This document shows, piece after piece, positions 18,865-28,021 of a stretch of 28,169 bases of DNA. A model generated the notes under the pieces. It was not told the DNA's origin. It did not search any database and worked only from the letters and a program-made list of their open reading frames with translations. Position 1 is the stretch's first letter; every line of letters starts with the position of its first letter. Source of the stretch: a virus; IMG/VR virus record IMGVR_UViG_3300023184_000425, positions 1-28,169 of that record; one strand, given 5' to 3'. Made by a program: the position numbers and the translations under genes.

Positions 18865-19323
18865 TTAAAATTTACGTTTAATTCCACGAGGGTCTTCTAC
18901 TACTGCCTCGACAGAATCGTCATTGATGATTCTAAATTCCCTACCATGAATAACAAGTCGAGTACCTGCATTAGGTCTAACCAATACAAAGTCCTTTTCT
19001 TTACACCATGGGCCATTTGGAAATCTAGTTGGGTCCTTAAAGCAATCTGGACCTAGAGCTACTACATATAGTACTGTAGATAAAAGTTCTTCCCGTCTAA
19101 TATATTCATCAGGGAGGGCTAACCCACTATCGGTTTCTTTATCTACTTCTGGTATTGCGCATAGAATGCGGTATCCAGAAGGTTTAGGAAGCTGCTTTGC
19201 TTTTTCAATATCTGTTGCATCGCCTACAATTGCTCGTATTTCTGCTTCTTCTTGACCTTCTTTCTTAGCACGTTCTGCCATGTCTGACAAATCTAGCGCT
19301 CTGTCAAAGCTAAGGTTACTCAT
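18865..19323 (-). CDS. Phage GroES-like co-chaperonin
   Basis: A 152-residue protein. Residues 1-45 are a charged, phage-specific extension. From ~49 a Cpn10 fold can be followed: GYRILCAIPEVDKETDSGLA with a mobile-loop-like segment, then STVLYVVALGPDCFKD, KEKDFVLVRPNAGTRLVIHG and REFRIINDDSVEAVVED, which aligns with the end of GroES. Such phage co-chaperonins (T4 gp31 is the classic functional case) pair with host GroEL to fold the large capsid protein. Location in the head-gene cluster agrees. It overlaps the 63-residue gene by eight bases. Confidence 0.8.
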   Translation of the reverse strand: MSNLSFDRALDLSDMAERAKKEGQEEAEIRAIVGDATDIEKAKQLPKPSGYRILCAIPEVDKETDSGLALPDEYIRREELLSTVLYVVALGPDCFKDPTRFPNGPWCKEKDFVLVRPNAGTRLVIHGREFRIINDDSVEAVVEDPRGIKRKF

Positions 19324-23877: not shown

Positions 23878-25428
23878 CTAGTAATACCCTTTAGTTCTTC
23901 TTGATTTAAACATTTTTAATTCATCAGGTTCATCTGAAGGTAACCTAATAAACCCACCTTGTCTGAATCGCATGAGTGCCATTGTGGTTGAGTCAACCAA
24001 GTCATCATGACTCATAAATGGGAAACCTGCAATCTCTTCTATAACTTCTTCGCCCCACCTTGCTTCTGGTATCCAACATAGTCCAGATTTCACAATATCG
24101 GCTACACTATTTAATCTTGCTAGTTTATCACCACTTCCACGATGTGGGGTATATTCTTGCACCGGCATACCCATTCTTCGTAATTCTTGGTATAAAGCTG
24201 TACCTGCTGACTTCTTTTCTACAATAAAACTATCAGGTTCCCATTCTTTATACTCATTTAAAGCTAAATCTTTTAGGTCTGGAAATTCTAACCGTTTCTT
24301 AATACTATTTAATAGTATTATATTATACGCTTCTTTTTCCTCATTCATAAATACTCCCCAAGTAGTTAAGGCAGTAAAGTCAGCTCGATTGTTAGTTTCG
24401 GCTGCGGCGTCAAGACTCATAATAATATATTCACATTGTGGTGGTCTTTCTTCTTTCCATATATTCCACCATTCTCTTTTTATAACAGATGCTTCTTCTG
24501 CCGTAGGATTCTGTTGATACTGTGCGTTCCACTGGAACACAGGCATGGACGCTTTTGTTTGACGTAATGCTTGTAAGGTATATTGTTCTGGCCAAAGTGC
24601 TTTCTCATCCTTAGCGCCTTCATTAAATATTGCAGGGAACTCAACCACTTCATACTGGTCTGCTTCCTCATTATTGAGCATGTCACGGACAACACGTCCA
24701 GTTAAGTCATCTTGGTGCCATCGAGTTTGTACAATCGCAACGCGTCCTCTTGGCATAAGCCGTGTTCGGGCTCCGTATGTAAACCATTCATACGCCTTCT
24801 CGAATATCTCGAAGTTCCCACTAATAATATCTTGCTCGTTGTGAGGGTCATCAACAAGGAGTAAGTCAGCGCCACGACCAGCAAGAGCGGAACCCACACC
24901 GCAAGCAAAATACTCACCCCCAACATTCGTGTTCCACCGACCAGCAGACTTATTATCTGCAGCCAGAGTAACTGTAGGAAAAATTTGTTTATACGCAGGA
25001 TTATCAATTAAGTTCCTTACCTTTCTACCAAAGTCAACCGCTAAGTCAGTCGTATGCGATACCATCAAAACTTTTTTATCAGGATACTTTCCTAAGAACC
25101 ATGCTGGAAAATATATAGATACAAGTTGAGATTTACCATGACGAGGTGGCATGTTGACACATATTCTTGTCTCAGTACCTTCTGCAATATTCATTAACAA
25201 GTCTGCAAGTCGTCTGTGGTGCTTACCCACTTTATAATCAGACTGCATCTTTTTACAAAACTCAATCAAGTCTTCACGACACGCTTGAGCACTCTGACGT
25301 CTTTCTAACTCAACTAATACTAAGTCTATTTCTTCCTGGTCAGTTAAATCAAACTCATCTAAATTATTGAGGAGAAAATTTAATTCCACATCATCTAAAG
25401 ACTCAAGCTGGTTTGTCTGTGTTGTCAT
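23878..25428 (-). CDS. terL: Terminase large subunit
   Basis: A 516-residue packaging ATPase/nuclease. Walker A MPPRHGKSQLV at 93-103, Walker B ADLLLVDDPHNEQD with Asp193/Asp194, and a motif VQTRWHQDDLTG (233-244) usual in this ATPase family. The C-terminal RNase H-like nuclease shows SLDAAAETNNRADFTALTTW (Asp340), FIVEKKSAGT (Glu404) and FMSHDDLVDSTTMAL (Asp475, Asp476, Asp479). It cuts concatemeric DNA and drives it through the portal. The start overlaps the hydroxylase gene by 26 bases. Length and all key residues are intact. Confidence 0.96.
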   Translation of the reverse strand: MTTQTNQLESLDDVELNFLLNNLDEFDLTDQEEIDLVLVELERRQSAQACREDLIEFCKKMQSDYKVGKHHRRLADLLMNIAEGTETRICVNMPPRHGKSQLVSIYFPAWFLGKYPDKKVLMVSHTTDLAVDFGRKVRNLIDNPAYKQIFPTVTLAADNKSAGRWNTNVGGEYFACGVGSALAGRGADLLLVDDPHNEQDIISGNFEIFEKAYEWFTYGARTRLMPRGRVAIVQTRWHQDDLTGRVVRDMLNNEEADQYEVVEFPAIFNEGAKDEKALWPEQYTLQALRQTKASMPVFQWNAQYQQNPTAEEASVIKREWWNIWKEERPPQCEYIIMSLDAAAETNNRADFTALTTWGVFMNEEKEAYNIILLNSIKKRLEFPDLKDLALNEYKEWEPDSFIVEKKSAGTALYQELRRMGMPVQEYTPHRGSGDKLARLNSVADIVKSGLCWIPEARWGEEVIEEIAGFPFMSHDDLVDSTTMALMRFRQGGFIRLPSDEPDELKMFKSRRTKGYY

Positions 25429-25915
25429 AAACTTTTTTAAGAAAATCTAATATTAAAATAACTCTATCTGCATTTGAATTGTTCTGTACTTCATGCGTGT
25501 TTGTATCATCAAATACAAACGCTTCTCCTTCTGTCCAAGTCATAACTTCATCACCTACTTTTATCCATGCGCCTTCTGGACATATCAGTCCTAAGTGAAC
25601 TCTATATACTTCGTCTGTATATCCTTCATGAGGATGAATGATTGTGCCTGCTTTTAATATAGAAAACCCAGCTGTCGTAACATCAGCTATTTCATTTATT
25701 ACTCTCATAGTTACAGGACATAATGCTTGCACAGACTTATTATCTTCTGTTTGAAATCTTAGTCCTATGACTGACCATCCATCTGTATATAAAAATTTTT
25801 CAGGCCATTCAACTGCAAGTGCTTGTACTTTTTTATACTCTTCTAATATAGCTGGCCAATTATTCATTAGCTTTTGTAAGAATGGATATTTATCTACTCC
25901 ACTAAAATACTTCAT
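25403..25915 (-). CDS. Aspartyl/asparaginyl beta-hydroxylase-like 2-oxoglutarate oxygenase
   Basis: A 170-residue protein that matches the catalytic pattern of the AspH-type family. IIHPHEGYTDEVYRVHLGL (His96 as first iron ligand, followed by Gly98, and RVHLGL), then the W-x-x-GEAFVFDD-x-x-x-HEV-x-N block (127-145) with His141 as second iron ligand, and NADRVILILDF with Arg151 for 2-oxoglutarate. In this family Gly takes the place of the usual acidic iron ligand. The enzyme would hydroxylate Asp/Asn (or another residue) of a protein substrate using Fe(II), O2 and 2-oxoglutarate. It sits between the two terminase genes, overlapping both (ATGA upstream, 26 bases downstream). Substrate unknown; a phage or host protein are equally possible. 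Confidence 0.82.
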   Translation of the reverse strand: MKYFSGVDKYPFLQKLMNNWPAILEEYKKVQALAVEWPEKFLYTDGWSVIGLRFQTEDNKSVQALCPVTMRVINEIADVTTAGFSILKAGTIIHPHEGYTDEVYRVHLGLICPEGAWIKVGDEVMTWTEGEAFVFDDTNTHEVQNNSNADRVILILDFLKKVYDNTDKPA

Positions 25916-26604: not shown

Positions 26605-26949
26605 TTAGAACGTGTCTATATCAAACATATATATGTCACATATTCTTTGAGCCAAACTTATGAAGTTATGGTTATGTGAATCAAAATCCCACTTGCCGTT
26701 GTGGTATCGACACAAGTGAATCATCTCATGCAATAATGTCTCACTCATTTTGTGCCACGTATCATTCGATATATCGAGTTCAATTCGGCAAGGTTCTGTA
26801 TGGAAGTATCCAAGTGCCCCGTCTAACTTCATCACTGCAAATTGAATCTTGTGGGGTGCAGGCATACGATACTGATTAAACGGCGGCATTTTAATAAGTG
26901 CACCATATAGTATTCTTAAATTTCGTCTAGTAAGTATTTTGGGGGCCAT
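26605..26949 (-). CDS. SprT-like zinc metalloprotein
   Basis: A 114-residue protein with SETLLHEMIHLCRYHNGKWD: HExxH (His74, Glu75, His78) followed after 14 residues by a His-rich FDSHNHNF (His92/His94) that would give the third zinc ligand, as in SprT/Spartan-like proteins. Small SprT-like proteins occur in many phages; Spartan in eukaryotes digests DNA-protein crosslinks, but the phage role is not established. The frame is open to 27003, but that would pass through a terminator, so MAPKILTRRN at 26949 is taken as the start. No SD is present, and a -10-like TATACT ends 6 bases before the ATG. Confidence 0.75.
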   Translation of the reverse strand: MAPKILTRRNLRILYGALIKMPPFNQYRMPAPHKIQFAVMKLDGALGYFHTEPCRIELDISNDTWHKMSETLLHEMIHLCRYHNGKWDFDSHNHNFISLAQRICDIYMFDIDTF

Positions 26950-26961
26950 ACTATATAGTAT
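26948..26961. promoter_or_regulatory. 14-base palindrome overlapping SprT start
   Basis: ATACTATATAGTAT is a perfect dyad that includes the A and T of the start codon of the SprT-like gene. On the minus strand it contains TATACT (with one base outside the dyad), which with TTAACG 16 bases upstream forms a weak promoter starting close to the ATG (leaderless transcript). It could therefore be an operator on a late promoter. Confidence 0.35.
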
Positions 26962-26965
26962 ACAC

Positions 26966-26995
26966 AAAAAAAGAGGGGCGTTAAGCCCCTTTTTT
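26966..26995 (-). terminator. Terminator of pqqA (bidirectional form)
   Basis: A-run, GGGGC (26975-26979), loop GTTAA, GCCCC (26985-26989), T-run. It begins about 25 bases after the pqqA stop on the minus strand, so pqqA forms its own transcription unit. Both sides carry A/T tracts, so rightward transcripts would also be stopped. Nearly the same module terminates the capsid gene. Confidence 0.85.
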
Positions 26996-27019
26996 AATAA
27001 CAATCCGTTACGATAATCA

Positions 27020-27091
27020 TTATTTATTCATTACGTACATAGTTACTTCAAAGCCAAAACGCATTTCTGTTGCAGCTGGTTTAGTCCACAT
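27020..27091 (-). CDS. pqqA: PQQ precursor peptide PqqA
   Basis: A 23-codon gene. The peptide begins MWTKPAATEMRFGFEVTMY and ends VMNK. It has the length of Klebsiella-type PqqA and keeps the diagnostic pattern: Trp2, Lys4-Pro5-Ala6, Arg11, Gly13, Glu15-Val16-Thr17 and Tyr19. In the PQQ pathway PqqE, with PqqD, joins the Glu and Tyr side chains of this peptide, and further enzymes release the cofactor, so each PQQ uses up one PqqA. AAGGAG stands 7 bases upstream of the ATG, and a terminator follows the stop. No pqqB-E gene is in the window, so processing would rely on the host. Chance occurrence of this peptide is very unlikely. Confidence 0.93.
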   Translation of the reverse strand: MWTKPAATEMRFGFEVTMYVMNK

Positions 27092-27098
27092 AGTAATA

Positions 27099-27104
27099 CT
27101 CCTT
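27099..27104 (-). promoter_or_regulatory. Strong ribosome binding site of pqqA
   Basis: The minus strand reads AAGGAG followed by seven bases (TATTACT) and the ATG. Perfect SD at optimal distance, which supports real and efficient translation of this 23-codon gene. Confidence 0.85.
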
Positions 27105-27113
27105 ATAAGTTAT

Positions 27114-27131
27114 ATAGAGTTTTCACTCTAT
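27114..27131 (-). other. pqqA leader hairpin with GAAA tetraloop
   Basis: On the minus-strand RNA AUAGAGU pairs with ACUCUAU around the loop GAAA (a GNRA tetraloop). It lies 9 bases upstream of the SD. It may stabilise the short mRNA or modulate ribosome access; no known riboswitch is recognised. Confidence 0.55.
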
Positions 27132-27140
27132 GACTGCATT

Positions 27141-27169
27141 ATTTCAAATTGAATGAAAACATACATCAA
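27141..27169 (-). promoter_or_regulatory. Weak candidate promoter for pqqA
   Basis: Minus-strand TTGATG (27164-27169) and TGAAAT (27141-27146) are 17 bases apart, each matching four of six consensus positions. It would give a 40-50-base leader that includes the GAAA hairpin. A phage-specific promoter type cannot be excluded. Confidence 0.3.
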
Positions 27170-27180
27170 GAAAATCATGA

Positions 27181-27210
27181 TTTACACGGCCGAAATTTCA
27201 CGCGTAATAT
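27181..27210 (+). promoter_or_regulatory. Candidate rightward promoter
   Basis: TTTACA (27181-27186, five of six consensus positions) is followed after 18 bases by TAATAT (27205-27210). The start point would fall within the palindrome at 27210-27227, the usual arrangement of a repressed promoter. No well-supported gene follows closely; the next one begins at 27515. Confidence 0.45.
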
Positions 27211-27227
27211 GTAAAGTATACTTTACA
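27210..27227. promoter_or_regulatory. 18-base perfect palindrome (operator-like)
   Basis: TGTAAAGTATACTTTACA is a perfect dyad without spacer. It overlaps the -10/+1 area of the rightward promoter candidate. Length and form are those of a binding site for a dimeric repressor; the protein is not in the window. Confidence 0.55.
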
Positions 27228-27514: not shown

Positions 27515-28021
27515 ATGGCTACATTAAAAGAACTAACTCAAGTATCAATCACTAACGTTGTTAGTGCTACTCAAGATGTAAAAGGTAAAACTAAAAAGAT
27601 GGTGGATTTATTGGTTGCAGATGGTGTTAAGTCATCAATGCTTGATAAGCCTAGTAAAAAGACTGACGCGAACCCTAACGCCACGTTGCAATTTGGTATC
27701 ACTCAAGCAATTATTAAGGGGCTACCTGCAGAATGGGTTAGCTTAATTGCTAAGGATACTAAGACGCTAAGTGACAGTGACAAAAATGCTAAGCGATACG
27801 CGCAACAACAAGTGGGTTCGTATTATGGCAAAGTAAAACGCGCTTTGATTGATTTTGAAAATCCAAAATCTACTGCGCCACGTGTCACACGTACAGCACA
27901 GCAACGTATCATTGACGCGTTGAATGACGCGATTGATGTAGCACAAGGTTCAGAAGATTTGAACATGGACGTTGCATTGTTTATCAAAAATATCAAGGCA
28001 AATATTGCACTTGTTAAATAA
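27515..28021 (+). CDS. Conserved phage protein, function unknown (rightward)
   Basis: A 168-residue, mostly helical, Lys-rich soluble protein: MATLKELTQVSITNVVSATQ, DVKGKTKKMVDLLVADGVK, then FGITQAIIKGLPAEWVSLIA, NAKRYAQQQVGSYYGKVKRA and, near the end, QQRIIDALNDAIDVAQ. The KRYxQQQVGSxxxxxKxAL element resembles small unknown proteins of T7-like and other aquatic phages. It is the only complete gene on the plus strand, with its own promoter and terminator, so it is probably an early or separately regulated gene. No enzymatic or HTH motif is obvious. The ATG has AAAGGA about 10 bases upstream. Confidence 0.75.
   Translation: MATLKELTQVSITNVVSATQDVKGKTKKMVDLLVADGVKSSMLDKPSKKTDANPNATLQFGITQAIIKGLPAEWVSLIAKDTKTLSDSDKNAKRYAQQQVGSYYGKVKRALIDFENPKSTAPRVTRTAQQRIIDALNDAIDVAQGSEDLNMDVALFIKNIKANIALVK

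Follow-up and report, generated by a model that had tools for sequence, protein, structure and literature searches.

What would a phage gain from a gene for PqqA, the precursor peptide of PQQ, if it brings none of the enzymes that turn the peptide into the cofactor? The question is raised by a viral stretch of DNA of 28,169 nucleotides (IMG/VR record IMGVR_UViG_3300023184_000425), referred to here as the window. An initial annotation, made from the letters alone, had proposed a PqqA frame with an AAGGAG ribosome site and a terminator at 27020–27091.

Results

A pqqA gene in a phage genome

The proposed frame is real and its coordinates are right:

27020..27091, minus strand: pqqA, 23 aa MWTKPAATEMRFGFEVTMYVMNK, PQQ precursor peptide (PF08042; identical to Methylophilaceae host peptides and to that of MW202481.1)

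The minus strand encodes the peptide MWTKPAATEMRFGFEVTMYVMNK*, with the ATG at 27091 and a TAA that ends at 27020, giving 23 residues and 24 codons including the stop; the plus-strand reading of 27020–27091 is meaningless. A search with the Pfam PqqA model (PF08042), one of the checks proposed in the annotation, returned a significant match of 42.4 bits (E 6.4e-11, cut-off 21.1) that spans model positions 1–19 of 19. Across the whole record this gene was the sole PqqA match (E 1.9e-11), and a degenerate PqqA DNA pattern matched the record once, where 0.00 matches were expected (none in 100 shuffles). Every residue listed in the annotation (Trp2, Lys4-Pro5-Ala6, Arg11, Gly13, Glu15-Val16-Thr17 and Tyr19) is present, and the Glu-x-x-x-Tyr core (E-V-T-x-Y) reads E15-V-T-M-Y19. 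PQQ is described in published work as deriving from a Glu and a Tyr of PqqA, with the crosslink made by PqqE together with PqqD; in the window peptide these are predicted to be Glu15 and Tyr19. The record also contains terminase and major capsid genes, which place pqqA in a viral context, that of a tailed and probably lytic phage. As a metabolic gene of host type carried by a genuine phage, pqqA is a candidate viral auxiliary metabolic gene.

A self-contained expression cassette

The gene stands in a self-contained cassette consisting of a candidate promoter, a 5' hairpin, a strong ribosome site, pqqA, a micro-ORF that would be translationally coupled to it, and a terminator. The annotation had recognized pqqA, the AAGGAG and the terminator, and had missed the micro-ORF, the extended −10 and the hairpin. 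The elements and their surroundings are as follows:

27515..28021, plus strand: divergent rightward gene, which marks the conserved divergent site of the cassette (95% identical in relative L457, 91% in L160, 66% in L427)
27210..27227, no strand: perfect 18-bp palindrome TGTAAAGTATACTTTACA, upstream of the candidate promoter (shared with L402, L427 and L457)
27138..27146, minus strand: candidate extended −10 promoter TGAAATAAT (conserved leader block)
27114..27131, minus strand: 7-bp hairpin ATAGAGT-GAAA-ACTCTAT with a GAAA loop, predicted 5' end of the pqqA mRNA (sequence and fold)
27099..27104, minus strand: Shine-Dalgarno AAGGAG, 7 nt before the pqqA ATG (sequence)
26994..27020, minus strand: 8-codon micro-ORF MIIVTDCY*, whose start overlaps the pqqA stop (TAATG) (conservation of M-x-x-V-T-D-C-Y)
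26964..26990, minus strand: intrinsic terminator AGGGGCTTAACGCCCCT plus T-run (sequence; kept in the pqqA-less sister L160)
26605..26949, minus strand: SprT-like protein gene, ATG at 26949, next gene past the terminator (PF10263, 35.2 bits)

The leader block with the putative promoter TGAAATAAT is common to 25 phage loci, in some of which the −10 reads TGGTATAAT. The hairpin (27131–27114) would begin at the expected transcription start and presumably stabilises the mRNA; in one locus (L045) its stem carries a compensatory change from A-T to G-C (GTAGAGT-GAAA-ATTCTAC). Perfect stems of at least 6 bp occurred in 116 of 220 distinct phage pqqA leaders, compared with 28 in shuffles, and in 23 of 121 Methylophilaceae host leaders, compared with 12; the 5' hairpin is therefore much commoner in the phage copies. 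Terminator-like sites followed 141 of 232 phage copies (4 in shuffles) and 104 of 124 host copies (6 in shuffles).

The palindrome TGTAAAGTATACTTTACA is a possible operator. It fits the TyrR-box consensus TGTAAAN6TTTACA, and variants of it occur in other pqqA phages. A second palindrome, ATACTATATAGTAT at 26948–26961, overlaps the start of the SprT-like gene. Elsewhere in the window, an aspartyl/asparaginyl beta-hydroxylase family gene (PF05118, 131.7 bits; 25403–25915, minus strand) overlaps the terminase start, and a Cpn10/GroES-like gene (18865–19323, minus strand; 20.8 bits, just under the Pfam cut-off of 21.1) sits between portal and scaffold-like genes and is conserved in relatives. An Rfam search gave sub-threshold matches only, and a tRNA search found none.

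Conservation in related phages

In two relatives pqqA occupies this divergent site as well, one close (L457; terminase 97%, divergent gene 95% identical) and one more distant (L427; divergent gene 66%). All 7 of 7 differences from the window in pqqA and the micro-ORF are synonymous in the first, and 7 of 7 in the second. Across 213 distinct phage pqqA genes pN/pS was 0.17 (pS 0.58). Phage pqqA is under purifying selection, and the conserved frame and synonymous pattern that the annotation had named as a test were both found. The phage genes are nevertheless more varied than those of Methylophilaceae hosts, for which pN/pS was 0.07.

A sister phage (L160), with terminase and capsid both 99% identical, has no pqqA. 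It retains the stretch that in L457 comes after the micro-ORF, terminator included, and most likely lost the cassette cleanly; the cassette is thus not essential. In about 60 further relatives, with capsid proteins 81–92% identical to the window's, pqqA mostly follows the major capsid gene at a distance of ~150–165 nt and is transcribed in the same direction. This position and the divergent site are the two favoured genome sites of pqqA. The best 80 terminase relatives listed had no pqqA in the stretch examined, many of these stretches being short, and some of them may infect other hosts.

pqqA is widespread in methylophages and goes unnamed

Pattern scans of IMG/VR gave at least 120 pqqA loci per scan, and the viral loci fetched from among the matches listed hold 275 copies, isolates and the window included. 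We also searched 50,697 annotated phage records by tblastn with PqqA. Hits came from nine methylophage records (Venkman, P19250A, MEP301, MEP401, MEP402 and four Melnitz) and one uncultured phage (MW202481), and Acinetobacter PqqA as query returned the same list of phages. Phages of isolated methylotrophs thus carry the gene as well. The six named methylophages belong to podo-, sipho- and myovirus groups. Their genomes are unrelated, and like the window they carry pqqA, 77–96% identical to the window's at the peptide level, without the enzymes; they differ from it in having no micro-ORF in the genome stretches inspected. When we speak of all cultured methylophages we mean all those found in the collection; MEP431-434, HIMB624-A and Venkman EXVC038S did not come up in the searches.

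None of the 10 phage records names PqqA: five have no feature there and five a 'hypothetical protein', which in MW202481 and Melnitz is a frame on the other strand. PQQ is not mentioned in the papers on MEP301 and MEP401/402, and in the Melnitz paper it appears only in the growth medium. Most gene callers apply a size limit that pqqA does not reach, so virus surveys will often have overlooked it.

Two hits labelled 'Acinetobacter phage MD-2021a' (CAKLQF020000010.1 and CAKLQH020000055.1) appear to be bacterial chromosome contigs, of which the one read has pqqBCDE downstream as well as mod and ent genes; both were excluded from the phage tally and later served as a control. Other PqqA types (e.g. 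...RLGFEVTMYFKNS/R) occur in viral contigs L020, L029, L036, L051, L059, L012 and L022, which suggests that phages of other PQQ-making hosts also carry pqqA.

Substrate without enzymes, and the likely host

A tblastn search with Acinetobacter PqqB, C, D and E found none of these enzymes in 200 viral loci or in the window, while the positive control (L008) was found; the stretches covered were often 5–15 kb, so that a distant enzyme gene is possible in any one phage. The window therefore does not have the pqqB-E neighbourhood that marks a bacterial pqq operon.

The C-terminal PqqA form MRFGFEVTMYVMNK occurs in at least 120 genome contigs, and those listed are almost throughout named Methylophilaceae or unresolved proteobacterial bins. 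Comparison with Methylophilaceae PqqA, along the lines that the annotation had recommended, produced letter-identical copies: the window peptide is identical to 36 of the 125 host copies examined. Peptide and cassette type together point to a Methylophilaceae host. The window terminase had no close match in 187 Methylophilaceae genomes and so gave no prophage link.

All 120 Methylophilaceae genomes searched contain pqqA, and 114 of them carry two or more copies, up to 12. A published survey likewise reports 3–12 pqqA copies and one pqqBCDE set per genome (PMC4109929). With pqqA multiplied beside a single enzyme set, these hosts already raise the dose of the precursor. In four OM43-type hosts (L272, L280, L285 and L467) two pqqA genes stand in tandem with about 200 nt between them, and the second kind ends in MYVCNR. 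The bacterial genes share the 23-residue peptide, ribosome site and terminator with the window, and many of them also lie away from pqqB-E. Unlike host pqqA, many phage copies are fused by TAATG to a micro-ORF.

A conserved micro-ORF linked to pqqA

The form M-x-x-V-T-D-C-Y occurs in more than 120 phage copies, nearly all directly after pqqA. The pattern MVIVTDCY preceded by TA was found in 68 viral contigs and followed pqqA directly in 68/68. When junctions were picked by the PqqA end and TAATG alone, blind to what comes after, 52 of the 75 distinct sequences read M-x-x-V-T-D-C-Y. In these 52 all five third positions of the VTDCY codons vary and no first or second position does, which is the codon-type conservation expected of a translated micro-gene. 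One junction has a stop in place of Trp: in L438 and L448 the micro-ORF reads MD*VTDCY, with TAG replacing the TGG of MDWVTDCY and the rest intact, which may represent decay, error or read-through. Searching without demanding pqqA gave 127 viral copies, 122 of them directly after pqqA; of the other five, one lies 77 nt past a PqqA core motif, another sits at the edge of its contig, and the remaining three represent a match in a different context that lacks a ribosome site.

A stand-alone MDWVTDCY with its own Shine-Dalgarno was present in 8 of 187 Methylophilaceae genomes. Four arrangements occur among these host copies (L478-L485), each with a same-strand pqqA 72–745 nt away, and the five neighbourhoods inspected resemble ordinary chromosome. 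A relaxed pattern with the three middle codons almost free returned exactly the same eight genomes and only V-T-D; it brought up no longer or varied host form. No copy was found in 399 Burkholderiales genomes.

We considered an RNA hairpin as the cause of the conservation and rejected it. A consensus fold across the junctions (alifold) gave no pairs, the changes fall on third codon positions, and the host flanks differ; a single-sequence fold does pair the stretch, contrary to alifold. We found no published description of the micropeptide in the literature searched, and this pqqA-linked 8-codon micro-gene (M-x-x-VTDCY in phages, MDWVTDCY in hosts) is apparently undescribed.

Discussion

We consider it likely that the phage supplies the PQQ precursor through its own cassette and that host enzymes process it, keeping PQQ-dependent methanol dehydrogenases running until lysis. 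Each PQQ made uses up one PqqA. As infection shuts off or degrades host mRNA, a phage copy would keep the precursor flowing while the enzymes persist, and PqqA output would be high from a short mRNA that is stable, or from a gene placed next to that of the capsid. Because the peptide is identical to host PqqA, it should be a substrate for host PqqD/PqqE and for the enzymes that act after them; its identity with host substrate peptides predicts that PqqE, together with PqqD, crosslinks it. The methanol dehydrogenases (XoxF/MxaF) could then keep delivering electrons and carbon until lysis. Cell-free extract has been described as turning added PqqA into PQQ, in work cited in PMC9851590.

The annotation's idea that the phage supplies the substrate and leaves the enzymes to the host fits the 200 viral loci without pqqB-E and a peptide equal to host copies. 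Of the dehydrogenases it named (methanol, glucose or alcohol), we favour the methanol/XoxF type over glucose; the host is more specifically Methylophilaceae.

The same pattern of substrate carried and enzymes never, in the viral loci searched, would also suit a decoy or regulator, an excess of PqqA that saturates PqqD/PqqE or the processing protease and so lowers PQQ or alters host regulation. In Acetobacter, over-expression of pqqAB raised PQQ by only 29% and of the whole pqqABCDE cluster eightfold (PMC7936290), so that the supply of precursor may not by itself limit PQQ in uninfected cells; the small yield of precursor with PqqB alone in that system is congenial to a decoy. However, the peptide matches the host's natural substrate letter for letter, with all PQQ-forming residues kept, hosts amplify pqqA likewise for their own use, and a lytic phage has no obvious gain from starving its host of energy. 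We therefore regard a decoy as improbable.

Still less probable is that the functional unit is mainly the micropeptide (x-x-V-T-D-C-Y), with pqqA there for translation coupling. Such a peptide might regulate PQQ synthesis, arrest the ribosome ahead of the terminator, or itself undergo modification as a second small peptide, and its protein-level conservation in phages and its separate host gene with its own ribosome site near pqqA agree with a function. Yet the micro-ORF is missing beside pqqA in the isolate methylophages and in many other phage copies, and pqqA therefore stands on its own. That pqqA is host DNA picked up by chance and functionless in the phage, as its identity to host copies and its variable presence among close relatives such as L160 might suggest, is barely credible: the codon pattern (pN/pS 0.17, and divergence from same-site relatives by synonymous changes alone) already contradicts it, and against it also stand the gene's presence in several unrelated phage groups, its recurrent placement by the capsid gene, and its dedicated hairpin and terminator.

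Supply of the precursor to host enzymes thus remains our preferred reading. More tentatively, and with rather less than even confidence, we speculate that PqqA is near-universal in methylotroph phages but has been overlooked, that many unrelated lineages acquired it, and that in a large group it is coupled to the new 8-residue micropeptide M-x-x-V-T-D-C-Y, which on host chromosomes is found only near pqqA and might act in PQQ synthesis or its control. At 8 codons this gene would rank with the smallest known, and it would hint at a step or control in PQQ biology that has yet to be described.

PqqA had been recorded in viruses before. The T4-like Methylophilaceae virus VP_266 from Lake Baikal, described in 2020, carries PqqA and methanol dehydrogenase and was proposed to aid methanol oxidation (PMC7678222), and viral pqqA also appears in a reservoir study of 2026 (PMC13188868). 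Both VP_266 and the window phage are methylotroph viruses with PqqA; the window represents a different type of phage, in which a dedicated cassette carries PqqA on its own. As far as we have searched, what is new is the presence of pqqA in all cultured methylophages found, the self-contained cassette, the two favoured sites together with the clean loss in L160, and the micropeptide gene linked to pqqA. In size the micro-ORF is comparable to mccA of microcin C7, a 7-codon gene; we found no modifying enzyme beside the micro-ORF and claim no sequence similarity.

Oceans and lakes harbour Methylophilaceae (OM43, Methylopumilus) in abundance, and there these bacteria consume methanol. If methylophages routinely supply the precursor of the methanol dehydrogenase cofactor, infected cells should keep oxidising methanol, in parallel to the photosynthesis genes of cyanophages. 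With the auxiliary genes psbA and hli, cyanophages supply a quickly consumed component of host energy metabolism; there the component is a protein subunit, whereas in the phages described here it would be the peptide substrate for a cofactor.
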